Source: Verrucomicrobiaceae bacterium (GTDB taxonomy: Bacteria > Verrucomicrobiota > Verrucomicrobiia > Verrucomicrobiales > Verrucomicrobiaceae). Taken from it: a stretch of DNA of 64,000 bases. The notes beneath the pieces are model-generated. The model did not search any database. It was not told where the DNA came from and was given only the letters and a program-made list of their open reading frames with translations. The translations under genes were made by a program, and so were the position numbers. Shown here one piece after another: positions 5,586-36,859 of the stretch; position 1 is the first letter of the stretch, and every line of letters starts with the position of its first letter. The stretch is taken from NCBI GenBank assembly GCA_019694165.1, contig JAIBCL010000001.1, forward strand, positions 62,001-126,000, written 5' to 3'.

Positions 5586-6542
5586 ATGGCGATCCAAACG
5601 GCAGACTCGGTATTCAAAGTTTCCTATGATGCGCGGCGCACGGAACTGACCAGCCTCGGGCGGGAGGCGGAATTGCGGCTGGCAATGCCGTGGCTTGCCG
5701 GAGCCTTTGCGGAGCATCTCGGCGGGCCGGCAGGCATGGTGCTCCGGAGAGGGCCGTTCATGGTCGCGGAACACGGTGACCAGATGACGGGCGCGGCCAT
5801 CGTGCCCGCATCCGACGGACTCGAAGCCGCCGCAGAGGGCATCTACCGGGAACTGCTGGCGACGTGTGGAGAGTTCCATCTTCACCGCATCTGGAACTAT
5901 GTGCCTCGCATCAATGACATGCAGGCCGGACTGGAACGCTACCAGCAGTTCAACATCGGACGCTGGGTGGCCTTCGAGGAGCGCTACGGGCGCGATTTGC
6001 GTGCATTCCTTCCAGCAGCCTCCGCAGTCGGCATCAAAGGCGACCATCTGGCCCTGATGTTCTCGGCGGGAAAACGCAGGCCGCTTTTTTTCGAAAACCC
6101 TTCCCAGGTGCCGGCCTACCACTATCCGCCTGACTACGGGCCGCGTCCGCCGGGCTTCGCGCGCGGCGTGGTCATCGAGGAGGCCGATGCGCGCACCGTC
6201 TTCCTTTCCGGCACGGCCAGCATCGAGGGACACCGCAGCGTGGGCGAGGGCGACTGGGACCTGCAATTCCGCACCACGCTGCACAATATCGAGACGATGC
6301 TCGGACGCATGGGCGTGCCCGAGGCGCTGCACGGCGACGCGTGGCGGCGGGGCGACGTGCTCGACGGCGGCTTCAAATGCTACCTGCGGCACCCTGAATC
6401 ACTCTGCGTCATGCAGGAGTTCTTTTTCGAACACACCGGCCTCGACGAGAGCCGGGTGTCATTCGTGCAGGCGGACATCTGCCGCAGGGAGCTGGACCTG
6501 GAGATTGAAGCCGCCATCCGGGCACCGTTGCCCCGTGCATGA
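5586..6542 (+). CDS. Chorismatase-like enzyme (FkbO/Hyg5/XanB2 family)
   Basis: 318 residues. Two blocks resemble the chorismatase fold: FHLHRIWNYVPRIN followed by LERYQQFNIGRWVAF (residues about 97-135), and VFLSGTASIEGHRSVGEGD (about 205-224), followed by the LQFRTTLHNIETML helix. Family members hydrolyse or eliminate chorismate to pyruvate plus a dihydroxycyclohexadiene carboxylate, 3-hydroxybenzoate or 4-hydroxybenzoate. Which product is made here cannot be told from sequence. There is no signal peptide, so it is probably cytoplasmic. Known relatives often sit in macrolide-starter, pigment or quinone gene clusters; here no polyketide or aryl-polyene genes are adjacent, and the next genes encode secreted proteins of unknown role. 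The family call is fairly secure, the product is not. Confidence 0.75.
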   Translation: MAIQTADSVFKVSYDARRTELTSLGREAELRLAMPWLAGAFAEHLGGPAGMVLRRGPFMVAEHGDQMTGAAIVPASDGLEAAAEGIYRELLATCGEFHLHRIWNYVPRINDMQAGLERYQQFNIGRWVAFEERYGRDLRAFLPAASAVGIKGDHLALMFSAGKRRPLFFENPSQVPAYHYPPDYGPRPPGFARGVVIEEADARTVFLSGTASIEGHRSVGEGDWDLQFRTTLHNIETMLGRMGVPEALHGDAWRRGDVLDGGFKCYLRHPESLCVMQEFFFEHTGLDESRVSFVQADICRRELDLEIEAAIRAPLPRA

Positions 6543-19164: not shown

Positions 19165-20208
19165 ATGAACCCCGTCCGATTCGCGCTCGCAGGCTTTGGC
19201 GCCTGGGGAAAACTTCACGCCCAGTCCATCGCCGGAAATCCCGAGGCACGCCTGGCCGCAATAGCCGCGCCATCCGAAGCGTCGCGTGCCGAGGCACGGA
19301 AGGCGCATCCCGATGCGCGCATCTTCGCCGACGCCAGGGAGATGATCGCGCAGACGGACTTCGACATCATCGACATCGCCACGCCGAGCCACACGCATCG
19401 CGAGATCGCCACCGCAGCGATGGAAAAAGGAAAACACGTCCTGCTCGAGAAGCCCATGGCCATCACCCTCGAGGATTGCAAGGCCATCGTCGCCGCCGCG
19501 CAGAAGCACGCCGTTCACCTCGCCGTCGGTCACGAACTCCGTCTCTCATCCCAATGGGGCGAGATCAAACAAGTCATCGAGCGCGGCACCATCGGCGAGC
19601 CGCAGTACGTTCTGGTCGAGCTGCTCCGCAAGCCCTACCGCCTTGGCGCAAGCGGCTGGCGCTACGATCAGAACCGCGTCGGAAGCTGGGTGCTCGAGGA
19701 GCCGATTCATTTCTTCGATCTGGCCCGCTGGTACCTCGAAGGCAGCGGCGATCCCGTGGAACTCTACGCCTACGGAAACTCGCGCGACCCCCGGCGCCCC
19801 ACGCTCTACGACAACTTCAGCGCCATGTTCCGGTACGCCAACGGCAGCTACGCCGTCGTCTCCCAAACCCTCGCCGCATTCGAGCACCACCAGACCGTGA
19901 AAGTCAGCGGCACCAAGGGCGCACTATGGGCCGGATGGAGCGGCGCGCTCGACCGCACGCTGGAGCCCGAGTACTTCCTCAAGGTCTTCGACGGCGAGAA
20001 ACTCGAGAACGTAAAGATCGAAAAGCACAGCGGCGAGGTCTTCGAGTTGCGCGAGGAAATCGCGCAGTGTGTCGAGATGGTCCGCACCGGCCGGAAACCC
20101 ATCGCCACGGGACGCGATGGCCTTTGGTCCGCCGGCCTGTGTCTCGTGGCCGAGGAGAGCATCCGCCGGCAAAAGCCGCTGCCCGTGGGCGACATGTTGC
20201 GGATCTAG
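19165..20208 (+). CDS. Gfo/Idh/MocA-family oxidoreductase
   Basis: 347 residues. The ATG at 19165 directly precedes the Rossmann motif FALAGFGAWGKLHA (residues 6-19). The EKP motif is at 95-97 (LLEKPMAI) and GHELRLSSQWGEIKQ belongs to the family's central region; EEPIHFFDLARWYLEG carries the conserved His/Asp neighbourhood. These are NAD(P)-dependent sugar or polyol dehydrogenases. It is only distantly like the first such enzyme in this window (14537-15688), so they probably act on different substrates. Cytoplasmic; substrate unknown. Confidence 0.87.
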   Translation: MNPVRFALAGFGAWGKLHAQSIAGNPEARLAAIAAPSEASRAEARKAHPDARIFADAREMIAQTDFDIIDIATPSHTHREIATAAMEKGKHVLLEKPMAITLEDCKAIVAAAQKHAVHLAVGHELRLSSQWGEIKQVIERGTIGEPQYVLVELLRKPYRLGASGWRYDQNRVGSWVLEEPIHFFDLARWYLEGSGDPVELYAYGNSRDPRRPTLYDNFSAMFRYANGSYAVVSQTLAAFEHHQTVKVSGTKGALWAGWSGALDRTLEPEYFLKVFDGEKLENVKIEKHSGEVFELREEIAQCVEMVRTGRKPIATGRDGLWSAGLCLVAEESIRRQKPLPVGDMLRI

Positions 20209-20296
20209 CGAGCCAGCGGCCCCGCGCGCAGGTCAGGCCGCGCCGCATGAGGCACGCTCCAGACAGAAGAACGAGAGACAAAAGGCAACAGCGACC

Positions 20297-23200
20297 ATGC
20301 GGCGACTATTTTCCAGGTTTGAATGCATTTTGCTGGCGGCGGCCTGCCTGCCAGCCTCCGCACAACAACCGTATGCAGGAACCCGCCCGCCCAAGTTCCA
20401 CCAAATCAGACCTGAGGAGGGCACGCAACTCTCGCAACTCTCGAGCGGCCGCATTGCCATCAACCCGACGAAGAACGGCGCGACGTTGAAGGCAGTCATG
20501 CAGCGTCTCGAAGGCGAGGCCACGCCCGGAGGATTGTGGCTCACATCCACCGCCGATGAAGATCTCGGAAAAGCCAATCGATTTCGCGTCAAAGCCGTGG
20601 GGCTTGCGCGTGAAAGTACTGCTGACGCTCCTTCCCACTCTCATCAAAAAGATTCACATCTGACGGGAGGGGCCGCGTTACTCTACCCATTTGCAGCCAC
20701 GGGCATCGTGCGTGCGACCAAGGATGCCGCCGTTTACGTTCGTCCCGACATGATCGAGCAATACAGCGTGAGCACCGACGGTGTGCGCCAGGACTTCATC
20801 ATCACACAACGCCCGCCTGGCGCGGGCGACCGGCTCAGCATCGAACTAGCCGTCACAGGTGCGCGTGCCGAAACCGCCAGCTACGGAGCCAAGCTCATCA
20901 TCACCGCCACCGGTCGCGAACTGAGCTACGCACGCCTCAAAGTCACCGACGCCACCGGCATGGAATTGCACGCCGCGATGGAAGCCCCTTCTGCCGATCG
21001 TCTTCGCGTGAGGGTGGACGACACCGCCGCCACCTATCCCGTGCGCATCGATCCGACGTTCAGTGATGCGGATTGGATCGTGGTGAATCCCGGATTGTCC
21101 GGAGCTGACGACGAGGTTTACGCCATCGTCGCCGATGCTGGAGGGAATCTCTACTTCGGCGGCGACTTCAATTTCATCGGGACGACGGCAGCCAGTTGCA
21201 TCGCGAAGTGGGACGGCAGTCGATGGTCCACGCTAGGCGCAGGAATCGAAAGCAATTTCGGTTACGGCGTGCGCACATTGGCCGTCGGCGGCGGTTATCT
21301 CTATGCAGGCGGCTTTTTCAAAACTGCAGGGGGAGTCAGCACGAACTTTGTAGCCCGATGGGACGGTACCGCCTGGTCCCCGCTCGGCACGGGAACCGAT
21401 GGAGGAGTGTATGCGCTGGCCGTGAACGGCAGCGATTTGTATGCGGGAGGATCATTTACTGCCGCTGGCGGAGCGCCTGCCCAATACATCGCAAAATGGA
21501 ACGGCACCTCATGGTCCGCCCTCGGCACAGGAATGAATGCATGGGTTTACGCGCTGGCCGCAAGCGGAGGCTCCATCTATGCCGGCGGCGAATTCGGCAT
21601 CGCCGGAGGTGTGAACACTGGCCACGCAGCAAAGTGGGACGGCAACGGCTGGTCGGCCCTCGGTGCCGGCCCGAGTGAAGTTCATGCTTTCGTCATCGAC
21701 GGCGCGACGCTCTATGCCGGAGGTTACGGAGTCCAAAAGTGGGATGGGGCCACATGGTCGAACCTGCCATTCGGCGAAAACGATTTCGCGGGAGTTGTGT
21801 ACGCTCTCGCGCTGAAAGACGGTGAGCTGTACGCCGGCGGGCGCTTCACACCCAATGAGAACGCGGATGCCAATTCCATCGCCAAATGGAATGGCGTTGC
21901 CTGGCAGTCCCTCGGCTCGGGAATGGGTGGTGGCTTCAGCATTTCATTTCCTGTTTATGCGCTGGCAGTCCGAGATGGTGAACTCTACGCCGGGGGATCC
22001 TTCGGCACAGCGGGTGACGTAGGTGCCAATAATGTCGCAAAATGGGATGGCAGCACATGGTCGGCGCTCGTGGCCGGGATCGGACATCGCGCAGTAGGCC
22101 TCTATCCCAGCGTTTCCGCACTTGTTATGAACGGCGTCGATCTGTACGTCGGCGGAACTTTCACCACAGTGGGTGGAGTGAATGCCAGCCACGTCGCCAA
22201 ATGGAATGGCAGCAAGTGGTCGCCCCTCGGCTCAGGCGTGAATTTCATTGTCAATGCGCTGGCGGCGAACGGACCCGATCTTTATGCGGGCGGATGGTTC
22301 ACCACGGCGGGCGGCGAGAGCGCGAACTATGTGGCGAGATGGAATGGCACCGCTTGGTCGCCGCTGGGGTCGGGATTGAGCGGAAGTCCATACAACACGC
22401 ACGTCGATGCATTGGCCGTGAAAGACGGTGACTTGTATGCCGGCGGCGAATTCACGGCTGCTGGTGGAGTAACCGTGAATAACATCGCCAGATGGAACGG
22501 CAGCGCCTGGTCCGCGCTCGGCTCGGGCGTGGACGCATGGGTCTCTTCACTGGCCGTCACCGGCAGCGGCAACCTCTACGCCGGGGGAACCTTCGCCACG
22601 GCAGGAGGTCTGGCTGCCAATTGCATCGCCAGATGGGACGGTAGTTCCTGGTTCCCTCTTGGTTCGGGAATGAGCGGATCAAGTTCGGGGTCAAATCCCC
22701 GGGTCTCCGCGCTGGCAGTCAGCGGGAGCGATCTTTACGCTGGCGGATGGTTTAGTTTGGCCGGTGGCGTGAACGTCGGCGGGATTGCAAAATGGAACGG
22801 CAGCACATGGTCGGCACTCGGATCAGGGATGATCAGCAACGTCAGCGCCTTGGCTGCGAACGGCAATAATCTCTACGCTGGCGGATGGTTCAGTTCCGAT
22901 GGCGGCCTGGATTTCGGTGGAGTCGCCAATTGGGATGGGAGCGCCTGGTCGTATCTTGGCCGCGCCAATGGCACTGTCTCGGCAATGGCATTGCGCGGCA
23001 GTGATCTCTATGTTGGCGGCGACTTTTTCACCGTTGGCGGCACTTTCTCACCCTTCGTCGCCCGCGCCAATCTGACCGGCGGCAGCCTTGACAGCGATGG
23101 CGATGGATTGCTGGACCAATGGGAGATCGCTCACTTTGCTTTCCGCGATGCACACGGACCGAGCGACGACAATGACCACGACGGTTACAACAATCTGCTC

Positions 23201-23482
23201 GAGGAAGCGCTTGGACTGGATCCCCTCGTTTCGAATGCTGGCGGCCATCCGTCGATCGTCCGAGAAGGCGGCTATCTAACGATGACGGTCACCAAACAGC
23301 CAGGTGTGAGCTACGAAGTGCAAAGCGCCGGCACCTTGGAAGCCGGGCAGCCGGATTCATTCAGCCCCACGAGCACCACCGTGCTCGTCAATGATGGCAC
23401 GACCCTCAAGGTGCGCGACAACCTCCCGGCCACCGCACCCAGTCGCCGCTTCGTGCGCGTGAAGGTGACCGCAGCTCCGTAG
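20297..23482 (+). CDS. Large secreted protein with 13 'AKWNG..WS.LGSG' propeller repeats
   Basis: 1061 residues from ATG 20297, which opens a signal peptide (ILLAAACLPASAQQ). After a ~250-residue N-terminal region ending in YPVRIDPTFSD come about 13 repeats, each with a YAGG-F-TAGG strand pair and a KWNG-W-LGSG turn. They are spaced about 46-50 residues and cover roughly residues 270-920. The C-terminus has a calcium-loop motif DSDGDGLLDQWEIAHF, then DDNDHDGYNNLLEEALGLDP and a terminal beta module, the usual end of secreted proteins in this phylum. A beta-propeller-rich surface or extracellular protein, possibly adhesive, is likely; no enzymatic residues are seen. Confidence 0.85.
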   Translation: MRRLFSRFECILLAAACLPASAQQPYAGTRPPKFHQIRPEEGTQLSQLSSGRIAINPTKNGATLKAVMQRLEGEATPGGLWLTSTADEDLGKANRFRVKAVGLARESTADAPSHSHQKDSHLTGGAALLYPFAATGIVRATKDAAVYVRPDMIEQYSVSTDGVRQDFIITQRPPGAGDRLSIELAVTGARAETASYGAKLIITATGRELSYARLKVTDATGMELHAAMEAPSADRLRVRVDDTAATYPVRIDPTFSDADWIVVNPGLSGADDEVYAIVADAGGNLYFGGDFNFIGTTAASCIAKWDGSRWSTLGAGIESNFGYGVRTLAVGGGYLYAGGFFKTAGGVSTNFVARWDGTAWSPLGTGTDGGVYALAVNGSDLYAGGSFTAAGGAPAQYIAKWNGTSWSALGTGMNAWVYALAASGGSIYAGGEFGIAGGVNTGHAAKWDGNGWSALGAGPSEVHAFVIDGATLYAGGYGVQKWDGATWSNLPFGENDFAGVVYALALKDGELYAGGRFTPNENADANSIAKWNGVAWQSLGSGMGGGFSISFPVYALAVRDGELYAGGSFGTAGDVGANNVAKWDGSTWSALVAGIGHRAVGLYPSVSALVMNGVDLYVGGTFTTVGGVNASHVAKWNGSKWSPLGSGVNFIVNALAANGPDLYAGGWFTTAGGESANYVARWNGTAWSPLGSGLSGSPYNTHVDALAVKDGDLYAGGEFTAAGGVTVNNIARWNGSAWSALGSGVDAWVSSLAVTGSGNLYAGGTFATAGGLAANCIARWDGSSWFPLGSGMSGSSSGSNPRVSALAVSGSDLYAGGWFSLAGGVNVGGIAKWNGSTWSALGSGMISNVSALAANGNNLYAGGWFSSDGGLDFGGVANWDGSAWSYLGRANGTVSAMALRGSDLYVGGDFFTVGGTFSPFVARANLTGGSLDSDGDGLLDQWEIAHFAFRDAHGPSDDNDHDGYNNLLEEALGLDPLVSNAGGHPSIVREGGYLTMTVTKQPGVSYEVQSAGTLEAGQPDSFSPTSTTVLVNDGTTLKVRDNLPATAPSRRFVRVKVTAAP

Positions 23483-23685: not shown

Positions 23686-24870
23686 TCACGCCGCCTGCGC
23701 AAGGACCGGAGCGATCTCTGCATCGCTCAAGTAGCACGCGGGGTCGGGCGCCCACATGTCGCCGGTGGAGTTCAGGGCACGCACGCGGAAGCCGCCGCCG
23801 CAGATGTCGAGGAAGCGGCAGTCGTGGCAGCGGCCCTTGAGATGTAGCTTTCGATTCCGCAACGCATCGAGCGCGTCGTCTTTCTTACCGCGCCAGATTT
23901 CGCTGAACGGGCGTTCCTTCACGTTGCCAAGATTGAGGCTCTGCCAGAACTGGTCGGGGTGCACATTGCCCTGAGTGTCGATGTTGCCGATTCCGGTGCC
24001 GGAGCTGTTGTTGCCGCCGCCGTTCCAGCGCAGAAGATCAATCACCTGCTGCGCCCGTTCGGGATTCTCCTTGAGCAGGCGCAGATACAAGTAAGCGCCA
24101 TCGACCGGCTGATCGACCGTGAGCACCTCGCGCGGACGGCCATCGGCCACCCACTTCGCCGTGCGGTCGAGGATGCGGTTCACGGCATCGCGCGTGTCCT
24201 CGTGCGGCACCGCTACGAGACCGGAGCCACGGCCGCTGGGCACGAGATGGTAAAAGCAGACGCGCTCGATGTCCTCACGCTCTATGAAGTCGAGGATCTG
24301 ATCGAGGTCGTCGATGTTGTGGCGGGAAAGCGTCAATCGCAGGCCGACTTTTTGCCCGACCTTCTTGCAGTTGCGGAACGCCCCCACCGCCTTGTCGAAG
24401 GCACCCTGCTTGCCGCGGAAATGATCATGCGTGGCACCGATGCCATCGAGCGAGATGCCCACATACGAAAAGCCAAGCTCCTTGATGCGCGCGGCCTTTT
24501 CTTCGTCGATCAGCGTGCCGTTTGTCGAAAGCGTGAGGCGCAGGCCCTTCGAGCGTGCATAGGCCGCGAGATCGAAGAAGCGCGGATGAATCGTCGGTTC
24601 GCCGCCTGAGAGCAACAGCGCGGGGATTTGAAACTGTGCGAGATCGTCGATGACGGAAACGCACTGGTCCCAGTTCAACTCGCCGGGGTATTCCTTCGCA
24701 TCGGAGTCGGAGTAGCAGTGGATGCACTTGAGATTGCAGCGGCGGGTGATGTTCCAGACCACGATGGGTTTTCGCTCGGCGGCTGAGTTTGGCGAGCCGT
24801 GGCCGCGTCCGTAGCGGAGCGAGTCCATCGGCTGTGATTCGTCACAGTAAAGGCGCGTTAGGTTGATCAT
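23686..24870 (-). CDS. ahbC: AhbC/NirJ-like radical SAM protein of alternative heme biosynthesis
   Basis: 394 residues. The N-terminus LTRLYCDESQPMDSLRYGRG followed by KPIVVWNITRRCNLKCIHC closely follows AhbC-type proteins. The radical SAM cysteines CxxxCxxC are C45, C49 and C52. A GGEP motif (LLSGGEPTIHP) follows, and the C-terminus carries further cysteines (GRCHDCRFLDICGGGF ... DPACYL) for an auxiliary Fe-S cluster. AhbC converts 12,18-didecarboxysiroheme to Fe-coproporphyrin III; the related NirJ acts in heme d1 synthesis. No other ahb or nir gene is nearby, so the exact reaction is inferred. The heme-bearing cytochrome-like proteins lie just beyond the neighbouring xylanase. Confidence 0.75.
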   Translation of the reverse strand: MINLTRLYCDESQPMDSLRYGRGHGSPNSAAERKPIVVWNITRRCNLKCIHCYSDSDAKEYPGELNWDQCVSVIDDLAQFQIPALLLSGGEPTIHPRFFDLAAYARSKGLRLTLSTNGTLIDEEKAARIKELGFSYVGISLDGIGATHDHFRGKQGAFDKAVGAFRNCKKVGQKVGLRLTLSRHNIDDLDQILDFIEREDIERVCFYHLVPSGRGSGLVAVPHEDTRDAVNRILDRTAKWVADGRPREVLTVDQPVDGAYLYLRLLKENPERAQQVIDLLRWNGGGNNSSGTGIGNIDTQGNVHPDQFWQSLNLGNVKERPFSEIWRGKKDDALDALRNRKLHLKGRCHDCRFLDICGGGFRVRALNSTGDMWAPDPACYLSDAEIAPVLAQAA

Positions 24871-25084: not shown

Positions 25085-25222
25085 TCAATCCGTGCACGCT
25101 GAAGCTCGGCTCTGCTTTTTCGGCTGCTCTTTGAGCGACAAGATGAACGCCTTCACCTCGGCGAACTCCTGCGGCTTCAAGATGAGATTCATCGAATGCA
25201 TCAGGATGATCGGGGTGGCTGG
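25085..25222 (-). pseudogene. Remnant copy of the C-terminus of a cytochrome c/dehydrogenase-like protein
   Basis: Minus-strand translation gives PATPIILMHSMNLILKPQEF then AEVKAFILSLK and a short tail ending at TGA (25087-25085). This is a near copy of the tail of the gene at 26445-29495 (TATPISPMPPMKLILKPQEF, ADVKAFILSLK). A stop (TAG) stands directly upstream where the parent has the Tyr of GYTATPI, and no recognisable homology continues before it, so only the 3' end is present. It lies downstream of the GH10 gene on the same strand, while the intact parent lies upstream of it. Confidence 0.75.
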
Positions 25223-25290
25223 CTATCCCGTCGAGCCGATGACGCGATTCGCACCGCCACCGAGGTTGTCGGAGCGTGCTCGGCCAAGAT

Positions 25291-26430
25291 TCAGCGCTTC
25301 ACCTGCTCGGCTTCGTTGCGCGCTTTGATGACGGCGTCGAAGCATGGCTTCGGCGTGCCTTGACGGTCAAAGAGCAGCGGGTGGCTCGTTCGTCCACGGA
25401 TCGGAAAGTGATTCAGCCAGGAGCTGGCGTCGCTCACGCCCCAGAATGTCACGCGCTCAAGTGTGCGGCGGTGTTTGAGGAAGAGGGTGAAAAGGTCGGA
25501 ATAGCGATGCGCGAGGCGTTGCTGCATTTCCTCGGGCAACCCGGCGGTGTAAGGATCCATTTTGGGATCGGCGGCGAATTGTTGCGACACATCGGCCCCG
25601 CCGTCGCCCGGAGTGGGCAGCACATTCACATCCAGTTCGGTGATCATCACTTTCAATCCCAGCGCGGCGAAGGCTTCGATGGTTTCCTCGATCTTCGACG
25701 CCGACGGGCGCGTGAGTCCGTAGTGCCCCTGCAGCCCGACGCCTGTGACGGTCACGCCGGCCGCCAGCAGCTTGCGCAGCATCTCCACGGCTGCATTGCG
25801 CTTGGCATCCAGTTCCAGCGAGTAGTCATTGTAGTAGAGTCCGACGTCAGGATCAGCTTCGTGCGCGAACTGGAAAGCCTTCGCGATGTAATCTTCGCCG
25901 AGAATGTCGAGCCACGGAGACTTCCGCAGCGTGCCATCATCGTTGAGGGCCTCGTTGACGACATCCCAGCCGCGGACTCTGCCTTTGTAGCGTCCCACGA
26001 TCGCGTGAATGTGCTCCCTCATTCGCTGAAGCAGTTTTTCTTTTGCCACTGGTTTCCCGTCGGACTCGCGAAAGACCCAGCCAGGCATCTGCGAATGCCA
26101 GACGAGGGTGTGGCCGATCACAGCCATGCCATGCGCCTCTCCAAAGCTCACGAACCGATCGGCTTCCCGGAAGTCATAGCGATCCGTCTCCCGGTGCACC
26201 ACACCCCATTTCAAGGCGTTCTCCGGCGTGATGGAATTGAAATGGCGCCGAATGATCTCCGCTTCCGCACGACTTCCGCCATGCGGACTGATTTCACCTC
26301 GGACCTGCCAGTCATTCAATGCCGTGCCGATCAGGAAATCATCACGGAACACCTCTTTCAAAGCTGGCTCCGCCGCTCGCGACGAGATGGTGAGTAGAGC
26401 CAGGCAGAATTTGATAAAGCGGAGCCGCAT
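25291..26430 (-). CDS. Secreted GH10 endo-beta-1,4-xylanase
   Basis: 379 residues. The start is ATG 26430, which gives a short hydrophobic signal segment (RFIKFCLALLTISSRAA). The GH10 TIM-barrel signatures are present: the WHSQMPGW region, the acid/base Glu in WDVVNEAL (E160) and the nucleophile Glu in VMITELDV (E265), with GLQGHYGL between. The length fits a single-domain GH10 enzyme. It cleaves internal beta-1,4 bonds in xylan, outside the cytoplasm. It lies 14 bases downstream of the large cytochrome-like gene and probably shares its transcript. A remnant of that gene's 3' end lies on its other side. Confidence 0.93.
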   Translation of the reverse strand: MRLRFIKFCLALLTISSRAAEPALKEVFRDDFLIGTALNDWQVRGEISPHGGSRAEAEIIRRHFNSITPENALKWGVVHRETDRYDFREADRFVSFGEAHGMAVIGHTLVWHSQMPGWVFRESDGKPVAKEKLLQRMREHIHAIVGRYKGRVRGWDVVNEALNDDGTLRKSPWLDILGEDYIAKAFQFAHEADPDVGLYYNDYSLELDAKRNAAVEMLRKLLAAGVTVTGVGLQGHYGLTRPSASKIEETIEAFAALGLKVMITELDVNVLPTPGDGGADVSQQFAADPKMDPYTAGLPEEMQQRLAHRYSDLFTLFLKHRRTLERVTFWGVSDASSWLNHFPIRGRTSHPLLFDRQGTPKPCFDAVIKARNEAEQVKR

Positions 26431-26444
26431 TGGGGCAGTATCCC

Positions 26445-29400
26445 TTACTTCAAGCTCAGGATAAAGGCTTTCACATCGGCGAACTCCTGCGGCTTCAGGA
26501 TGAGCTTCATCGGCGGCATGGGGCTGATGGGCGTGGCGGTGTAGCCTTCGGCGAGCTTGGCGTTCGGATTCACAAGCGACTCGGTGATGTAGGCTTCGTC
26601 CTTGCGGCCGGCGATGCCGTCGAGCGCAGGACCGACGGCACTGCCCTGCCCTTTGAGCATGTGGCAGTTTTTGCAGGCAGCTACGGGGTGGTTCCAAAAG
26701 ATGTTCTCGCCGCGCTTCGGATTGCCAGCCAGCGCGTTCTCGTCTTCATTTTCCACCGGCACGATCTCGCACAGCTTCACCTCGTCGAAGTAGCCATCGC
26801 CTTTGGCCACATGCAGGATGTTGATGCTGGCCGTTGCCTTGTCCTTGTTCGTGAAGATGACTTCGACCTCGTTCCAATCGGTGTCCCTTTTCGTGATCTT
26901 GTTCGTCTCGGCGCGGCCGATGTGATCGTTGAAGCTGACCTTGCCCTTCAGTGCGTGCGTTTTTACCCAGCCGCTGAGGCGATACTTCGTATTCGGCTTG
27001 AGCGGCACATCTTGATAGAAGCTGGTGTCAGCATCAGCGCGTGTGATGCAACGAATGGCGCTCTTCCCGCTGTGCGTGTTCCCTTCGCCAGTGACGACCT
27101 TCCATTCAGCCTTCGCATTGCCTTCCTTCTTTGGCTCGCCGCCGTAGTCACGGCGCTTCCAGCCTTCCGGGAAACCGTCTTTGCCGATCTTCTCGAGGTC
27201 GCCGTTCACGAGCAGGTTCGGGCCTTCCTTGAAGCCTTGTGCCTGATGTTTCTTCGTGAGCACCCGCGCGGCTTCACTGAGCCATTCGTCGCCGATCACG
27301 ACCGGATCACCGGCGAGTTTCGTGACGAGATGCTTGATCTCCGGAGTGGTCTCGAACTCGGCCAGCTTCACGAATGCGGCGAGTCGCGTGTTCAAATCGG
27401 GATCACTGATGACACCTGCGCCGAAGAAGAGGTCCTGCGATTTCTTGTCTGTGCCGAGAGCTCGGATGGCATTTCGGCGGAGCTTGGCGTCTTTTGAGAG
27501 CAAAGCGGCGCGATGCGTGGCTTCGTCGAGTTTGCCGAGGCCGTGGACGGTCCAGAGAGCGTGGATGGCACCAATATGGCTGCCATTTGATGCGATCATC
27601 TCGTTGAACATCGCGACATCGCTACGCCCCAGCTTTTTGAGACCCGCAATTCCGTCTATCACATTTCCTTCGCTGGAGTTCTTGGCCGGCACGATCTCCG
27701 CTACAAAAGATCGGGGTGGGTTCTGCAGCATCATGCGCTGCGCCGTCAATCGCCAGAATTGGAGCGGACTTTTAATGCGTGGCTCCCAATCCGCCTGCTG
27801 TGCCATCTCTCTAGGAAACGCTTTTGTTTCGACCTTCGCCCCCTTGGCGAAGACACGGTAAATCCGCCCGCGCTCATGATCTCGCAGCGGGTTCTCATGC
27901 GCACCGCCGCCGCCGGTCTTCGCCTCGAAGCCGCCGCGTTCTTTGCTCGGCGTGGGGTTGTGCTGGATGATGAAATTCTGCCAGTCGGCGATCCACACGG
28001 CACCGTCGGGACCGACTTCGGCATGGACGGGCGAGGTCCACTCATCGCTGCTGGCGAAGAGATTGAAGGCATCCTTCGCGGTGTAGCCCGCGCCCTGCGG
28101 CGCCACTTTCATGAGCGACACCACCTTCATCGTCGGCTCGCAAACCATCGCGCAGCCTTGGAATCGCGCGGGCAGTGCGGGTGACTCAATAAAGTTCGAT
28201 CCTGCCGCCGCCGTGTAGCCGCCAAAGACGTCCACCTGACGGAAGTTTGGCGTGATCGTGTGGCATTGATCGACCTCATTGATCTTCTTCGCGCTCATGC
28301 CGTTCACGCCTTTCGGAAACGCCGTCGCCGGAATGCCGCCGAAGAACAGCGGCGCGCCATTCGCTGTGCCGCCGAACTGATCGCCCGCGTCGTTCGTGCT
28401 GTGGCCCCACGAGTTGTTCGTGAACTGATGCAGAAACTCCAACGCACTGCCGTCGGGCTTGAAGCGATACGTGCCCATCGAGAACTGCTTCGTCTCGCCG
28501 CCGATCTGTCCGTCAAAGCCGCTGTAGCCCACGCAGCCGTAGATCCAGTTGTCGAAGCCGTAGTGCAGATTGCTCGCCTGCGCGTGCGTGTCGCGGATGC
28601 CCCAGCCGGTCATGATTTCCTTCCGCACATCGGCCTTGTCGTCGCCGTTCGTGTCCTTCAGAAAAAGAAAACGCGGCGGCTGGCTGACGATGACGCCGCC
28701 ATTCACGAGCACGAGACCGGTCGGGATGTTCAGCTTGTCGGCGAAGACCGTGAACTTGTCCGCTTTGCCGTCGCCGTCGGTGTCCTCGCAGATCTTGATG
28801 TCGTCGTGGCCTTCGCCGTTCTCGATGACACCATGCGGGTAGTCGCGCGTCTCGGCGATCCAGCAGCGACCGCGCTCATCCCAGGCCATGGCGATCGGCT
28901 TCGTGATGTCGGGCTCGCTCGCGAAGAGTTTTAATTCGCAATCCGCCGGCACTTGCGTGCGCTCCATGCTTCCCTTCGTGCTCATCGGGAACTGGAAGGT
29001 CACCGGCTCCTTGCGCTTCTCGTAGTTCGCCACGGTGTCACGCTTCTCGCGCTTCTCCGGCTCGCGCTGCTTCAAAAAGGCCTCGTAATCCGCGCGACGC
29101 TCGCTGCTCAATGCGGCGAGGATTTGCTCCTTCGCCTTCGCCACGAAGGCTGCGTCATCTTCCTTGTCCTTCTCCGGGAACGCGGGCTTCACGACCGGGA
29201 TCGACAACGGCTTGCCGCTGCTGATGTCGATGCCATCGGAGATGACCACATCGAAGACAGCCGGATCAAATTGGCCTAATCGGTCAACAGCATCTGTTGC
29301 GTTGGACACGGCTTCGAAGTCGAACCAGATCGCATCACGACCGAGATCACGCATCAGCACATGGCAACGCTTGCCGCTGGTGCGCTCGGGAGTGTCATGA

Positions 29401-29495
29401 CCGACGAACAGGACGCGTACGGGACCCGTGGCGGCGTATGCCGCAAGCGAGAAAGCGAATGATGAAACGAGCAGGAGCCTGGTGAACCGGATCAT
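26445..29495 (-). CDS. PVC-type membrane-bound dehydrogenase-like protein with CBM-like domain and C-terminal cytochrome c
   Basis: About 1016 residues; ATG 29495 opens a signal peptide (FTRLLLVSSFAFSLAAYAA). A ThuA-like N-terminal segment (VRVLFVGHDTPERTSGKRCH) is followed by the large propeller domain common in Planctomycetes and Verrucomicrobia (AMAWDERGRCWIAETRDYPH, DTDGDGKADKFTVFADKLN). After a helical region comes a CBM-like beta-sandwich (NLLVNGDLEKIG ... YFDEVKLCEI). The C-terminus is a cytochrome c domain with one heme motif CKNCH and a Met-rich PMPPM loop for an axial ligand. Such proteins are proposed to oxidise sugars or polyols and pass electrons on; the substrate is unknown. Heme attachment implies periplasmic maturation. 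Confidence 0.85.
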   Translation of the reverse strand: MIRFTRLLLVSSFAFSLAAYAATGPVRVLFVGHDTPERTSGKRCHVLMRDLGRDAIWFDFEAVSNATDAVDRLGQFDPAVFDVVISDGIDISSGKPLSIPVVKPAFPEKDKEDDAAFVAKAKEQILAALSSERRADYEAFLKQREPEKREKRDTVANYEKRKEPVTFQFPMSTKGSMERTQVPADCELKLFASEPDITKPIAMAWDERGRCWIAETRDYPHGVIENGEGHDDIKICEDTDGDGKADKFTVFADKLNIPTGLVLVNGGVIVSQPPRFLFLKDTNGDDKADVRKEIMTGWGIRDTHAQASNLHYGFDNWIYGCVGYSGFDGQIGGETKQFSMGTYRFKPDGSALEFLHQFTNNSWGHSTNDAGDQFGGTANGAPLFFGGIPATAFPKGVNGMSAKKINEVDQCHTITPNFRQVDVFGGYTAAAGSNFIESPALPARFQGCAMVCEPTMKVVSLMKVAPQGAGYTAKDAFNLFASSDEWTSPVHAEVGPDGAVWIADWQNFIIQHNPTPSKERGGFEAKTGGGGAHENPLRDHERGRIYRVFAKGAKVETKAFPREMAQQADWEPRIKSPLQFWRLTAQRMMLQNPPRSFVAEIVPAKNSSEGNVIDGIAGLKKLGRSDVAMFNEMIASNGSHIGAIHALWTVHGLGKLDEATHRAALLSKDAKLRRNAIRALGTDKKSQDLFFGAGVISDPDLNTRLAAFVKLAEFETTPEIKHLVTKLAGDPVVIGDEWLSEAARVLTKKHQAQGFKEGPNLLVNGDLEKIGKDGFPEGWKRRDYGGEPKKEGNAKAEWKVVTGEGNTHSGKSAIRCITRADADTSFYQDVPLKPNTKYRLSGWVKTHALKGKVSFNDHIGRAETNKITKRDTDWNEVEVIFTNKDKATASINILHVAKGDGYFDEVKLCEIVPVENEDENALAGNPKRGENIFWNHPVAACKNCHMLKGQGSAVGPALDGIAGRKDEAYITESLVNPNAKLAEGYTATPISPMPPMKLILKPQEFADVKAFILSLK

Positions 29496-29552
29496 GGCGC
29501 CCATCCATGAAACGGAATGTCCAGAATGCAACGCCTGGAGCGGCCGGCGGCA

Positions 29553-32500
29553 TCACTTCAGCGTCTGCAGCCACGCCACAAGATCGGCCAAACCTTGCGC
29601 GCCGATTGTCGCAGCGAGTCCGGGTGGCATGAGTGAGTCCTTCATCTCCGCCTTCTTGGCGATGCTTGACTTCTTGACCGCAATCGCTGCACCACCCGCG
29701 ACCTTCAGAGTCAACTCGCTGTCCGTCTCGCTCACGATGTAGCCGACGATGGTTTGGCCTTCCTTTGTCATGATCGTCTCACCATGGAAGCTGTGCTCGA
29801 TGGCGGCGCTCGGATACAGCACGGCGGTGAAGAGCCCGTCTTTGCTGAGCTTGTTGCCGATCTGCGAGAGGTCGGGGCCGAAGTCGATGAACTGGCCTTT
29901 CACACGATGGCAGGCCACGCAGCCCGCCTGCATGAACATCTGCTGTCCCTTGCCTGCGTCGCCTTTGAGCTTCATGAGTTCGGGGATGGTGGGGAAGTTC
30001 TGCAAGCCTTGCGCGGCGGGCAAAGGCAGGGCGCTCGCGGCCTCGCTGCGCACTCCGGCATCGGTGCTGCGACTGAGGGCGAGCGCGGCGGTGGTGAGCT
30101 GGGCTTCGGGCAATTTCTTCTCGCTGTGCCAGCGCAGGATGTTGCGCGCGCCTTCGCTGGTGAGAGCGAGGGCTTCGATGGCCGTGTTGCGCACGCCGTT
30201 GTCCTTGAGCTTCCAGAACGCCTGGTTCAAGACGGCGACGCTCGCGCGATCACCTACGCGGCCCAGCACGTTCACCAGCGCGGTGGCGCTCTTCGGATCA
30301 GACTTCTCTAGCAAGGCCGTCGTGCCATCGCGATTCGCCGCCAGCATCTTCGCGGCGGTGATCGACTCCGGCGCGTTCGGGTTCGCGAGGATGTAATCGA
30401 GCAGTTCCTTCTCGAAGCCCGTGAGGTTCAGTCGCTCGACGAGTGAGACAAACTCCGGCTTGCCGATCACCGGTTTCAACAGCGAGTCGAGCCGTGCTTG
30501 AGCCGCCGGGTCCTTCGAGAGTTGATCCCGCGAGAGCAAGGCGACGGACGCAAGTGCGGTTTCGCTGTCGGCTTTGAGGAAGATTTCGAGCGCGGCTTTG
30601 GCAACTTCGGCGGGGTGGTTGTATTGAAGGAGTTGGAGGGAGCGGAGGAGGCGAAGAGAATTCGCTTTGATCCATGCTTGGACATCTCCGGTGAGATTTG
30701 CTGTCAGGCCAGTGGCGAGGGACTGAGTCACAGAACTGCTGCGGACTCGAAGTGAGATCTCCAACTGACCCAACTGACCAGATTGGTTCGACGCTTGCCC
30801 GGACTTCTTTAGCGAATTGGCAAATAAAGTGTCGGCTCGCGATTGCCACGCCAAATCTCCAGCAATGCCAAGGGCTTCGACCGTCCACCGATCCGAGCTT
30901 CCAATTTGGTCTGCGATGTCTGCCCAGAGTTCACTGGCAGCGGACGATGGATCGAACCGCAGCGCAATCGCCGCCTCGCGGCGCACGGCGGCGGACGAGT
31001 CCTTCACGACCTTCGCCACGACCTCGCGCAGCTTCTCTGGCTGCTCGCGATACAACTGCCGCGCCGCACGGATCGCGGTGATGCGGATGTTTTCGTCGCT
31101 GTCGCTGAGCGCGGTGGCGAGTGTATTCCCGGGCTTTAGCCCGTCTGGCTTGGTTTGCAGAGCTGGCTTCGCATTCGATGGCGCTCCAGCCTGCTGCGGT
31201 TGGGCGGCCTGAAGGCCGGGAATACTTCTCTCCAGCGATGCCAGCAGCCACAACGCCCGCGCTCGGTGCTGCGGCTCGGCTTTCTTGTCTTCGAACAATG
31301 CACGGATGCGCTCGACCGGTGCGTCCGGTTTGCTGAGGGCATGCCAGCCTCCATAGCGCGCCGATTCATTGGGAGATTTCAAATCTAAAAACGCTGGCGT
31401 CCACTGGTCTCCGCGAGTGATTCTTTGCACAGGGTCATACCTTTCCGCCGCCTTCGTCGTCACGCGGAACAACCGTCCACGCGTCACATCCCCCATGCCG
31501 TGGCCGCCGACGCCCGGATCATACCAGTCGGCGACGATGAGCGAACCATCCGGTGCCACCGCCACATCGCTCGGCCTGAACCAGCGATCACGCGCAGCAC
31601 CATCGAGGATGTTCACGATCTCTGCCTTGTAGCCTGCGCCTTCGGGCTGGGTGACATAGGCACGCACGACGTTGGGACCAGCATCGCAGTGAATCGGCAT
31701 CCCCTTGAAAATCGATGGCAGCAGATCGCCTTCATAGACTTGCATGCCGGTGGGTGAGCCTGCGCCGGTTTGAAGGAGGTTCGGAATCACGCCGGGATCG
31801 TTTTGATGCCAGTGGCGTTTCGGGATCTCGTCCTCCCAACCGATGCGCGGTGTCTGCCAGCCGGCGCCGGTCATCTCGTCGGAGTAGCCGTAGTTGCCGA
31901 ACTCCATGACGTAGTTGATGCGCACGCCTTTGTTGCCGTCGTCGTCGTTGTCGGACTGCCACATCGTGCCGAACGAATCCACGGCGACCTCCCAGTTGTT
32001 GCGGAAGTTCCAGGCGAGCACCTCGACGTTGCTGCCGTCGAGTTCGCAGCGGAAGACCATGCCCTGCTGATAGGGGCGGTTGTTTTGATTGGTGCACTTC
32101 ACGCCGTGGATGTCGGTGATGAGGTTGCCGTCCTTGTCGCAGAGCTGCTTGCCGGCGTTGCCAAAGTTGAAGTAAAGGCGGCCATCGGGGCCGAAGTGGA
32201 AGGCGTGGATGCCGTGGTCGTGCTGTGCGCCGCCGATCTTGGTAAACATCAATTCTTTGCGGTCGGCCTTGTCGTCGTTGTTGTCGTCGATGAGCCAGAA
32301 CACGTCATCGCCGCAGGAGATGAGCGCCTTGTTGCCGAGCACGCAGATGCCGTGCGCGCTGTCCACATCGTGGCCCTGGTAGAAGACGGTGGACTTGTCG
32401 GCTTTGCCGTCGTGGTCGGTGTCTTCGAGGATGAGGATGCGGTCGCCCTCCTTGCGCTCGCCGAGGTGCTTGCGGTAGTTCACGACCTCGCACACCCACA

Positions 32501-33146
32501 CGCGACCGCGTGCGTCGATGTCGATGCTGCTCGGGCTGGCCATCATCGGCTCGCTGGCAAAGAGCTGCACGACGCACTCGGGATGCACGTCCAGGCTCGC
32601 GATGGCATCGGCGGGGTCGTGCGTGGCTTCGTCACTGGACTTGATCTCACCAGGGTTCTCCGTGTAAACCGCGAACACGACGCTGTCGCTGCCTTGCTTG
32701 CTGCCACCTTCATCGAGCGCGCCGCGTGCTTTGAATCGTTGCGCACCATCTGGCAGGTTGAAGGCGATCACGCTGTTGGCATGCGTGCCGATGCCATACT
32801 CGATGGCCTTGCCTGCGCTGCGCAGCTCACCGCCGCTCGCATTCGCGTTCACACGCACTTTGCCCCAGCCGGACTTCGCAGACTTCCACTCGACGTCCGT
32901 GAGCTTCTTTTCGGACGAGTCGGACATGATCAGACGCGGCTCGGCCCAGTCTGCCCAGTCAGCGGTGAAGCCATTGCCGCCATCAGTGACGACGAGGAAC
33001 AGCTCCTTCGCGCCCTTCAACTCGACGTCGATGTCCACCGAGTGGCCCGGCGTCTGGGTATTGAGGAGCTTGCTTTGAAACAACGGCTTCGGCGCGGCAA
33101 ACGCGGCGGTCGATGCGAGGGCGAGGACAAGAATGCGGTCGAGCAT
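29553..33146 (-). CDS. PVC-type dehydrogenase-like protein with NPCBM domain, HEAT repeats and C-terminal cytochrome c
   Basis: 1197 residues; ATG 33146 opens a signal peptide (DRILVLALASTAAFAAP). An NPCBM-like domain (VDIDVELKGAKELFLVVTDG ... YGIGTHANSVIAFNLP, about 35-150) precedes the propeller domain (SSIDIDARGRVWVCEVVNYR). A long HEAT-repeat region (about 590-1050) follows. A cytochrome c domain with CVACHRVKG closes the protein. It probably anchors on glycans and moves electrons from sugar oxidation, by analogy with related PVC proteins. The HEAT region contains an in-frame insert encoded by a REPIN-like element at 31123-31225, which adds about 34 residues (roughly IPGLQAAQ to LKPGNT). 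The gene is just upstream of its paralogue on the same strand. Confidence 0.87.
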   Translation of the reverse strand: MLDRILVLALASTAAFAAPKPLFQSKLLNTQTPGHSVDIDVELKGAKELFLVVTDGGNGFTADWADWAEPRLIMSDSSEKKLTDVEWKSAKSGWGKVRVNANASGGELRSAGKAIEYGIGTHANSVIAFNLPDGAQRFKARGALDEGGSKQGSDSVVFAVYTENPGEIKSSDEATHDPADAIASLDVHPECVVQLFASEPMMASPSSIDIDARGRVWVCEVVNYRKHLGERKEGDRILILEDTDHDGKADKSTVFYQGHDVDSAHGICVLGNKALISCGDDVFWLIDDNNDDKADRKELMFTKIGGAQHDHGIHAFHFGPDGRLYFNFGNAGKQLCDKDGNLITDIHGVKCTNQNNRPYQQGMVFRCELDGSNVEVLAWNFRNNWEVAVDSFGTMWQSDNDDDGNKGVRINYVMEFGNYGYSDEMTGAGWQTPRIGWEDEIPKRHWHQNDPGVIPNLLQTGAGSPTGMQVYEGDLLPSIFKGMPIHCDAGPNVVRAYVTQPEGAGYKAEIVNILDGAARDRWFRPSDVAVAPDGSLIVADWYDPGVGGHGMGDVTRGRLFRVTTKAAERYDPVQRITRGDQWTPAFLDLKSPNESARYGGWHALSKPDAPVERIRALFEDKKAEPQHRARALWLLASLERSIPGLQAAQPQQAGAPSNAKPALQTKPDGLKPGNTLATALSDSDENIRITAIRAARQLYREQPEKLREVVAKVVKDSSAAVRREAAIALRFDPSSAASELWADIADQIGSSDRWTVEALGIAGDLAWQSRADTLFANSLKKSGQASNQSGQLGQLEISLRVRSSSVTQSLATGLTANLTGDVQAWIKANSLRLLRSLQLLQYNHPAEVAKAALEIFLKADSETALASVALLSRDQLSKDPAAQARLDSLLKPVIGKPEFVSLVERLNLTGFEKELLDYILANPNAPESITAAKMLAANRDGTTALLEKSDPKSATALVNVLGRVGDRASVAVLNQAFWKLKDNGVRNTAIEALALTSEGARNILRWHSEKKLPEAQLTTAALALSRSTDAGVRSEAASALPLPAAQGLQNFPTIPELMKLKGDAGKGQQMFMQAGCVACHRVKGQFIDFGPDLSQIGNKLSKDGLFTAVLYPSAAIEHSFHGETIMTKEGQTIVGYIVSETDSELTLKVAGGAAIAVKKSSIAKKAEMKDSLMPPGLAATIGAQGLADLVAWLQTLK
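31123..31225. repeat. REPIN-like palindromic repeat element inside a coding sequence
   Basis: The left arm is GTATTCCCGGGCTTTAGCCC (31123-31142). The reverse complement of the right arm (31206-31225) is GTATTCCCGGCCTTCAGGCC. Each arm contains its own hairpin core (GGGCT/AGCCC and GGCCT/AGGCC). The differences between arms are compensatory, so both hairpins and the long-range inverted pairing are kept. This is the layout of REP doublets (REPINs) moved by RAYT transposases. It lies within the HEAT region of the 29553-33146 gene without breaking the frame. Confidence 0.7.
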
Positions 33147-34558: not shown

Positions 34559-36859
34559 ATGTCTGTGCCGCACGTATTCATCAGTCACTCGTCAAAGGAC
34601 CGCCAATTCATCGAACGGGTGCTGCTGCCGCCGCTGCGCGAGCATGGCGTGCGCACATGGTTTTCTCCGCACGACATCCCGAGCCGGGCCGACTGGGAGA
34701 AGACGATTCGCGCGGCGCTCAACGAATGCGACTGGTTCCTCGTCGCCCTGTCACCTGACGCGATCAAATCCGACTGGGTGCAGGCCGAGGTACACTGGGC
34801 GCTCGACAACCGCAAAGGCCGCTTTGTCTCCACCATCCTCGAGACCTGCACGCCTTCCGATTTGCATCTCCAGCTCATCCGCTACCAGCACATCGACTTC
34901 CGCGGCGACACCGCCGCCGCGATCCGCAAGCTGCTCGCCGTCTGGTCGCTTGAGGAGCAGCGCTCGCTGGCCGTCGAGTTCATGTGCCGCGACGAACCGG
35001 CGGCGCCAGCCCGCACCGTACTCGTGCATGTGCGCGATCTGGTGCGCATCGGCCGTGCGCCAAACTGCGACCTGCTGATCAATTCCCCGTGCGTCTCGCG
35101 CTTTCATGCATTCATCGAACACGAGGCGCGCGAGGGAAAGCTCTGGCTTATCACCACCGGCGCCAAAGCCGGCACGCGAGTAAACGGAAACGTTGTCACG
35201 GAGAGAGTTGCGCTGGCGGAGGGCGACAAGATCGAGGCGGGCGATGCCACGATCATTGTCCAGCGGATCATCAGCTCCAAAGTCGAACCTGCCAGAGCCG
35301 AAAGTGACACGGAGCGGCCGGTGTCTGTTTCAGTCCGGCGGGCCGTGCCGTCCCGACGGAAGCACGGCGATGTCATCAAGGACGAGGAACGCGAGCGGCC
35401 AGCGGCTGCACGGAAGCAGACGCCGGACGCCGCCCGTCGTGTGGAGCGCGCGGAAGCCGCGAGAAGGAGAAAGCAAGAGAAGGCCCGGCAGGCCGAGGAA
35501 GCCAAAGCCGCATGGACAAAGGCGGTTTATGAAAATGCCGAGGCGGAGATCATGGCTGCCAAACGCAACGATGCACTCAAAGCCGCGGAGACCGAAACAG
35601 GCCAGCGCCAGAATCACGATGCCCTCGCGACGGCGGCGGATGACGGGCCGACCATGCGAGCCGCCGCCACCACCGTCGGGACAACCCGTCAAGATGCAGC
35701 CATCGTGGCCGGACAGCCGGCAGCGGCAGCACCGCCGGCCTCGCCCAGCCGGCCTCAGCTTCCCGTTTTCTCTTCGGCCACGGGAAAGGAACCGACGGAC
35801 TGGATCCACTTCCAGTGCAGCGTGTGCGGGATCATGGTGGCCGTGCCCGGGCAGTTGGCCGGCAAACAGGGGCGCTGTGAGCGGTGCGCGCAGAGGATCA
35901 CGGCAGCGCGACATTCCCTGCCGCTGTCAGCGCCGTCGGCTGGCCCTCGTTCCACAGCCTCCATCTCGCCGCTGTCGGCGATTAAGAACCCACCGGGTGC
36001 AGCCGCCGCCTGTGCGCAGGCAAGGCAGAGCTATGCGACCGGCGACTATGCAAAGGCACAGGAGCAGTTCTCCCAGGCCATCCAAGTTGAATCCGGCAAG
36101 GCGTCTCACTACGCGGAGCGGGCCGCCGTCTGGTGCAAACTGGGCAAGCCGGACGATGCAGTTGCCGACCTTTCGACCGCCATCGCGCTGGAGCCGGAAA
36201 ACACCAGCTTCTACAATCAACGCGGAATCGTGACGGCCTTCACGCTGGCGAAATACGCGGAGGCATTGGCGGACTTCAACAAGGTGATCGGCTCCGCGCG
36301 ACCATCCGCCGTCAATTATCATCATCGGGGGAGGACGCTGTCATTCCTCGGCAAGCATGTCGAGGCGCTGGCCGACCATGAGAAGGCGATTGAGCTGGGC
36401 GGAAAGGACGCCGTCTACTATTGCTTTCGCGGAGTCGCCCGCAGGAATCTGGGAGACTTGGCCGGCGCCATGGCGGACCTGGACCGGGCGCTTGCGATCG
36501 ACCCCAAGCACGCCTTCACGATCCAGATCAGGAACGGGCTGCTGGAGACAGCGAATCAGGCAAGGCTGGCCGAACTGCGCAAAACAGCCGAGGAGCGATT
36601 CGCGCGGGAACACTGGGAGACGGCCGCAATGGCGTTTGAAGAGCTGCTTGCGCTGGGGCAGCCTCTGGGCACGCATGGCCCGCGGCTCGTACGATGCCTG
36701 CTGAACGCCCACGAGATGCTGCTTGATGCGCATGCACGCCGGATCGAGGAAATCCTTGGGCAGCTCGAACGCGAGAAGCTCGTCGAGACGGCCAAAACGC
36801 TTCGGACTGAGTTTGACAAAAAGAAGCGTGGCAGTCGTCGCTCTTGGCTCAATTGGTAG
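34559..36859 (+). CDS. TIR-FHA-zinc ribbon-TPR multidomain protein
   Basis: 766 residues. Domain order: TIR (about 4-125, FISHSSKDRQFIERV, with E77 in SDWVQAEV at the place of the catalytic NADase Glu of enzymatic TIRs); FHA (about 150-240, with IGRAPNC and the phosphothreonine-binding SRFHAF); a Lys/Glu-rich charged helix (about 270-350); a short zinc ribbon (CSVCG ... CERCAQ, about 419-450); and at least four TPR units (about 480-690). No signal peptide or membrane segment. FHA binds phosphothreonine, TPRs bind proteins, and TIR domains either cleave NAD or act as adaptors. This suggests a phosphorylation-controlled TIR effector or scaffold; that is inference. It lies 13 bases upstream of a small secreted protein gene. 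Confidence 0.9.
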   Translation: MSVPHVFISHSSKDRQFIERVLLPPLREHGVRTWFSPHDIPSRADWEKTIRAALNECDWFLVALSPDAIKSDWVQAEVHWALDNRKGRFVSTILETCTPSDLHLQLIRYQHIDFRGDTAAAIRKLLAVWSLEEQRSLAVEFMCRDEPAAPARTVLVHVRDLVRIGRAPNCDLLINSPCVSRFHAFIEHEAREGKLWLITTGAKAGTRVNGNVVTERVALAEGDKIEAGDATIIVQRIISSKVEPARAESDTERPVSVSVRRAVPSRRKHGDVIKDEERERPAAARKQTPDAARRVERAEAARRRKQEKARQAEEAKAAWTKAVYENAEAEIMAAKRNDALKAAETETGQRQNHDALATAADDGPTMRAAATTVGTTRQDAAIVAGQPAAAAPPASPSRPQLPVFSSATGKEPTDWIHFQCSVCGIMVAVPGQLAGKQGRCERCAQRITAARHSLPLSAPSAGPRSTASISPLSAIKNPPGAAAACAQARQSYATGDYAKAQEQFSQAIQVESGKASHYAERAAVWCKLGKPDDAVADLSTAIALEPENTSFYNQRGIVTAFTLAKYAEALADFNKVIGSARPSAVNYHHRGRTLSFLGKHVEALADHEKAIELGGKDAVYYCFRGVARRNLGDLAGAMADLDRALAIDPKHAFTIQIRNGLLETANQARLAELRKTAEERFAREHWETAAMAFEELLALGQPLGTHGPRLVRCLLNAHEMLLDAHARRIEEILGQLEREKLVETAKTLRTEFDKKKRGSRRSWLNW

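Follow-up and report, generated by a model that had tools for sequence, protein, structure and literature searches.

The window, a stretch of 64,000 nucleotides from a bacterium of the family Verrucomicrobiaceae, carries on its minus strand two consecutive cytochrome genes, a GH10 xylanase gene and a radical SAM/SPASM gene, with a short remnant of a cytochrome gene lying between the last two (Table 1). The likely start codon of the intact cytochrome gene that precedes the xylanase is an ATG near 29495, and matches to this gene at E<=1e-100 were obtained in 41 of the 57 genomes searched, its own genome included. The xylanase starts 14 bases past the cytochrome stop codon, and its assignment to GH10 comes from a full-length match to PF00331 above the Pfam cut-off (E 8e-102, 341 bits, residues 24-369 against positions 2-310 of the 311 in the profile). 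The radical SAM gene is 86-87% identical to copies in genomes G010 and G017 and is probably an inherited neighbour; no strong cytochrome tail was found in the 29 loci of this gene that were scanned. A Pfam scan of 26 window proteins, out of about 42 candidates, detected neither an integrase nor a transposase. Elsewhere the window encodes a large protein with repeated beta-propeller units (DUF5122/Rax2) and 70-base DNA repeats (20069-23482), a protein with TIR-FHA-TPR architecture (34559-36859), and a protein with a chorismatase N-terminal domain of the FkbO/Hyg5-like kind (5586-6542).

Table 1. Genes and gene parts around the xylanase, in reading order (positions in the window)
Feature	Position	Strand	Basis or remark
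Second DUF7133-type cytochrome gene	29553-33146	minus	first in reading order
Intact gene of the DUF7133 + CBM_4_9 + Cytochrom_C protein	26445-29531	minus	Pfam domains
Repeated core in the intact gene: last 21 codons, ATG..LSLK	26448-26510	minus	
GH10 xylanase gene	25291-26430	minus	Pfam PF00331
Stretch of 62 bases without assignment, xylanase stop to remnant	25229-25290	minus	profile match begins at 25228
Outer cytochrome tail (remnant), 100 bases	25129-25228	minus	profile search, E 3.6e-23
Remnant upstream part, homologous but ruined	25193-25228	minus	6/12 codons changed, one to a stop
Remnant core, 21 codons ATG..LSLK	25130-25192	minus	against consensus: 10 base differences, 1 amino-acid change (D>E)
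EQPKK-Q extension of the remnant	25112-25129	minus	resembles the EQPKK/EQPKR gene ends in G005 and G008
Radical SAM/SPASM gene beyond the remnant	23686-24870	minus	Pfam

The preliminary description of this DNA had reported that the tail of the cytochrome gene recurs, in the same orientation, on the far side of the xylanase, and a direct-repeat search combined with alignment controls confirmed it. The repeat pairs 25139-25228 with 26457-26546 (90 nt, 79% identity), both copies being on the minus strand with the GH10 reading frame in between. Its local alignment scores 89, whereas 186 other stretches of the window gave no score above 36 and 300 shuffles none above 35, and a chance similarity of the two tails was thereby rejected. 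When the tail peptide was searched against its own genome, the two copies were returned at E 2e-22 and 1e-8 and the next best match at 0.13; the repeat is beyond chance, and this genome holds no further strong copy. Some details of the earlier account needed adjustment. A remnant does exist, but the limits given for it, 25085-25222, fall 6 bases short of the homology found by profile search at one end and overrun it at the other, the matching peptide reported as LILKPQEF-x-VKAFILSLK is in fact LILKPQEFA-x-VKAFILSLK, and the longest identical run common to both tails measures 22 bases instead of 20.

The outer tail had been regarded as a copy of the intact gene's tail, a view that is not supported; it is probably the 3' end of a second version of the cytochrome gene that had diverged. 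The outer and inner cores differ at 13 of 63 bases, and among their 21 codons 8 differ synonymously and 2 with an amino-acid change, while the tails of six other genomes are closer to the remnant core, from which they differ at 10 bases. Random substitution of the consensus (20,000 trials) changed 7.0 codons on average, and at most one changed codon was obtained in none of the trials under uniform substitution and in a fraction of 0.0001 under transition-biased substitution; the remnant core therefore derives from a working gene under selection. After LSLK the remnant continues with EQPKK, an ending that belongs to other genera: the cytochrome gene ends with EQPKK in G005 and with EQPKR in G008, and this region of the remnant agrees with them at 14 of 18 and 15 of 18 bases, respectively, compared with 9 for the best of 60 other tails. 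Either score is reached at only 2 of 127,964 window positions, one of which is the remnant. At the position of the stop codon of G005 and G008 the remnant reads CAG, and its core is of the common MNLILKPQEF type where theirs is MGLILKPQEL. MNLILK has an asparagine that is common in the family; the remnant retains it, whereas the intact neighbour has a lysine at this position.

Upstream of the core the picture changes abruptly. The preceding 12 codons of the remnant are still recognisable but carry 12 base differences, and the SPMPP codons directly upstream, unchanged in 60 of 60 intact genes, are changed in four out of five cases. The best split between changed and unchanged codons falls just before the ATG, with a permutation p of 0.036 that is weak and post hoc. 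Such a sharp edge could come from a joint formed by recombination, or from selection acting on the core, but is not what an evenly decaying stub would show.

Second tails were also sought in relatives. The remnant peptide was matched in 59 of 68 family genomes, its own counted, and the cytochrome loci of these 59 together with that of G038, a member of another family, formed a set of 60 loci (750,776 bases). In five of them (G029, G017, G086, G088 and G072) the sequence ends less than 1,300 bases past the stop codon, where a second tail as distant as that of the window could escape. Strong second tails were present in three loci, namely that of the window's own genome (G000, E 4e-21) and those of G061 (5e-20) and G068 (3e-21), and a search of 68 genomes for the tail DNA pattern matched 47, three of them twice (backward control, 0). 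A further candidate in G030 (E 0.005) was discarded, as its sequence reads like the end of a different cytochrome-type gene. Among named records, the first 57 of 80 loci were scanned; the tail was found in 52 of them and a second tail only in L168 (Prosthecobacter sp. VE4, NZ_JACSRD010000098.1), which, judged by its layout, appears to be the same locus as that of G061. A search for direct repeats in the 60 loci yielded 37 rows, three of which are the tails, and the repeats inspected by eye in four genomes contain no gene end. Intergenic repeats that look palindrome-like by eye were seen near the cytochrome gene, in L158 (G061) past the second tail and, within genus g2, in L061 (G002) and L068 (G018).

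The cargo between the tails of G061 and G068 differs from the xylanase: it is a reading frame of 114 and 112 residues, respectively, which has no Pfam match and, judged by eye from its sequence, looks like a zinc-ribbon membrane protein. Beyond it, the second tail consists of 63 coding bases plus a stop and starts at the same ATG as the remnant core; the two genomes differ there at 5 codons, all synonymously. The same cargo, shortened, follows the cytochrome gene of G064 without a second tail. Elsewhere in the family the cargo frame found one match (G013, E 0.009), and none of 387 genomes sampled from the phylum had it, although this sample contained no carriers and hence no positive control. 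The flank gene downstream of G061's second tail lies within 10 bases of the cytochrome stop codon in G067 and G060, which likely represent the empty site for G061. About 90 further bases, absent in G067, separate the second tail of G061 from that flank gene. An esterase gene occupies the interval between the cytochrome gene and the same flank in G027, G079 and G035. These two observations leave some doubt whether the empty state is the ancestral one. For the window's genome no empty site was found, as its radical SAM flank was unmatched in up to 9 kb beyond the gene in the 59 other loci. Since G061, G068 and G064 share one cargo, there may have been only two events in all. In G061 and G068 the outer tail looks native and the inner one foreign, by a few bases, but G064 does not fit simply into this assignment, which is given no weight here.

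The xylanase has a sporadic distribution. GH10 genes were detected at E<=1e-60 in 7 of 68 family genomes, and only those of the window and of G009 reach 1e-100. Relatives in which a xylanase always accompanies an intact second gene with this tail had been named beforehand as evidence against a duplication or insertion; the family search listed no intact gene with the remnant's tail, and the xylanase type occurs in 2 of 68 genomes at E<=1e-100. In its tree the xylanase groups most closely with G009 (58-59%) and G221 (support 84), while the GH10s of G034, G002 and G013 branch elsewhere, and the window's gene looks either acquired or lost by most relatives. The G009 xylanase has no cytochrome-gene match within its 19.5 kb. 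A quick rpoB tree places the window's genome and G001 as sisters (93% identity) near G010 and G011, and in an equally quick tree of the cytochrome gene the window's copy stands beside G010, G011 and group g9, a position compatible with descent. The cytochrome gene of the sister genome G001 (L055) nests inside genus g9, unlike its rpoB, which reflects either a transfer or a misbinned contig. In G038 (L064, 6121-8494) the order is cytochrome, esterase, xylanase (GH10), and in G050 (L073, 5460-9047) an esterase-xylanase (GH10) fusion precedes a cytochrome-type gene; the GH10s of these two genomes form a clade of their own, separate from that of the window. Xylanase and cytochrome genes thus meet repeatedly, perhaps for functional reasons, and their pairing in the window need not be tied to the stub. 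A recent arrival from a virus or plasmid was rejected: the exact tail pattern had 0 matches and the cargo frame no relative in viral contigs, and six plasmid records matched the window stretch partially, the five listed all being annotated as xylanase.

An insertion between the two tails, as originally proposed, is thus a good candidate, although the idea that the inner tail was copied to the outer position finds no support. The locus holds a mosaic fragment with an ending of another type, and two other genomes combine a different cargo with the same left edge. Our leading explanation, held tentatively and with somewhat less than even confidence, is that DNA bearing the xylanase entered by recombination within the final 21 codons, which are conserved, and that a tail from a different version of the gene was stranded in the process. 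Incoming DNA would recombine with the chromosome within these codons, the cytochrome gene would keep a working end now followed by the xylanase, and the other gene end would stay beyond the cargo, as in icd/icdC of Escherichia coli; the agent could be an integrase or ordinary homologous recombination. This route, like the assignment of one of the two ends as native at this site, is what we infer from these features. The main competitor, a serious possibility to which we give an only slightly lower probability, is that a second full cytochrome gene of the EQPKK type once lay downstream of the xylanase, an ordinary neighbour, and that a deletion left only its last ~33 codons. Plain deletion can leave a bare 3' stub in this gene family: between G012 and G018, with flanks about 89.5% identical, ~2.6 kb of a cytochrome paralogue are gone from G012, a single-contig genome in which the last ~81 codons remain as a bare 3' end (L337, 5194-5442), and the whole gene stands at the same place in G018 (L329). 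Like the remnant, this stub is an isolated end of the same gene family, but it is longer, was left by a deletion and has no visible cargo. A 40-residue cytochrome stub is also known from G496 (L339, 6101-6217), where it ends a frame of 147 residues whose first part looks unrelated. Further in favour of a deletion, G581 (L342) carries three tandem full copies of the gene family, G630 has two matches 4.1 kb apart that are probably tandem copies, and the xylanase of another clade that follows cytochrome and esterase genes in G038 suggests that the pairing may be functional. Against it, a stub that decays evenly would not combine a clean core with a ruined upstream part, in G061 and G068 the second tail begins at the same ATG, and an intact gene with the EQPKK ending was seen at the same place in no family genome (none in the 59 other loci, including the five that end early). 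Joining at the tail is slightly preferred, since it accounts for the sharp boundary, for the mostly synonymous differences and for the recurrence with another cargo.

Two other explanations carry little weight. That the neighbour's own tail was partially duplicated and diverged afterwards would suit the shared orientation and the identical run, but is improbable given the EQPKK ending, the nearly exclusively synonymous differences and the asparagine that the remnant retains. Least probable of all, the stranded tail may have been conserved for a function of its own, as a short peptide from the ATG or as a DNA or RNA site; all three second tails start at an ATG and the codons differing between G061 and G068 are all synonymous, but by eye the ATG has no ribosome-binding site immediately in front of it, in the window the frame continues into sequence that is unrelated, and second tails occur in only 3 of 60 loci. 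If recombination in the tail is the correct explanation, single metabolic genes can settle at the end of a protein-coding gene with neither phage nor integron machinery in evidence, and the marked scar left there would allow such gains to be traced in genomes; if a deletion is, the locus warns that short gene-end repeats flanking a gene need not mean insertion. A broader proposal, which we consider unlikely, is that the conserved last 21 codons repeatedly serve as a junction for small cargo units lacking an integrase, such as the xylanase here and the small frame of G061 and G068. Each unit would come in with a replacement end and leave the old one behind, and recombination of one end with the other would excise it cleanly. 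A limited literature search, covering titles and the openings of abstracts, returned no description of such a layout.

The closest precedent for a stranded tail is icd/icdC of E. coli K-12, in which the element e14 is inserted within the gene. There the gene retains a complete reading frame, a further 3' end follows the insert, and few of the base exchanges change an amino acid; for icdC, 165 bp, 12 exchanges and 2 conservative changes are given (PMC11148124). The window locus resembles it in that the cytochrome gene remains complete, another 3' end follows the xylanase, and the two ends differ mostly synonymously. The insert in E. coli is a prophage, whereas here it is one xylanase gene, with the copies 1,318 bases apart, and in G061 and G068 the cargo frame, with copies about 455 bases apart; no integrase was found in either, the gene between the window's tails being a GH10.

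Planctomycete-specific cytochrome c (PSCyt) genes of Verrucomicrobia are described as lying near sulfatase genes and in some cases carrying carbohydrate-binding domains (mSphere 2017, PMC5615132); the window's cytochrome gene is alike in having a CBM_4_9 domain and a xylanase neighbour, and its other Pfam domains are DUF7133 and Cytochrom_C. Immediately upstream of SPMPP, the cytochrome loci of relatives have one of two five-codon tracts, YTATP or FEKLG, which take turns from lineage to lineage as if exchanged by recombination.
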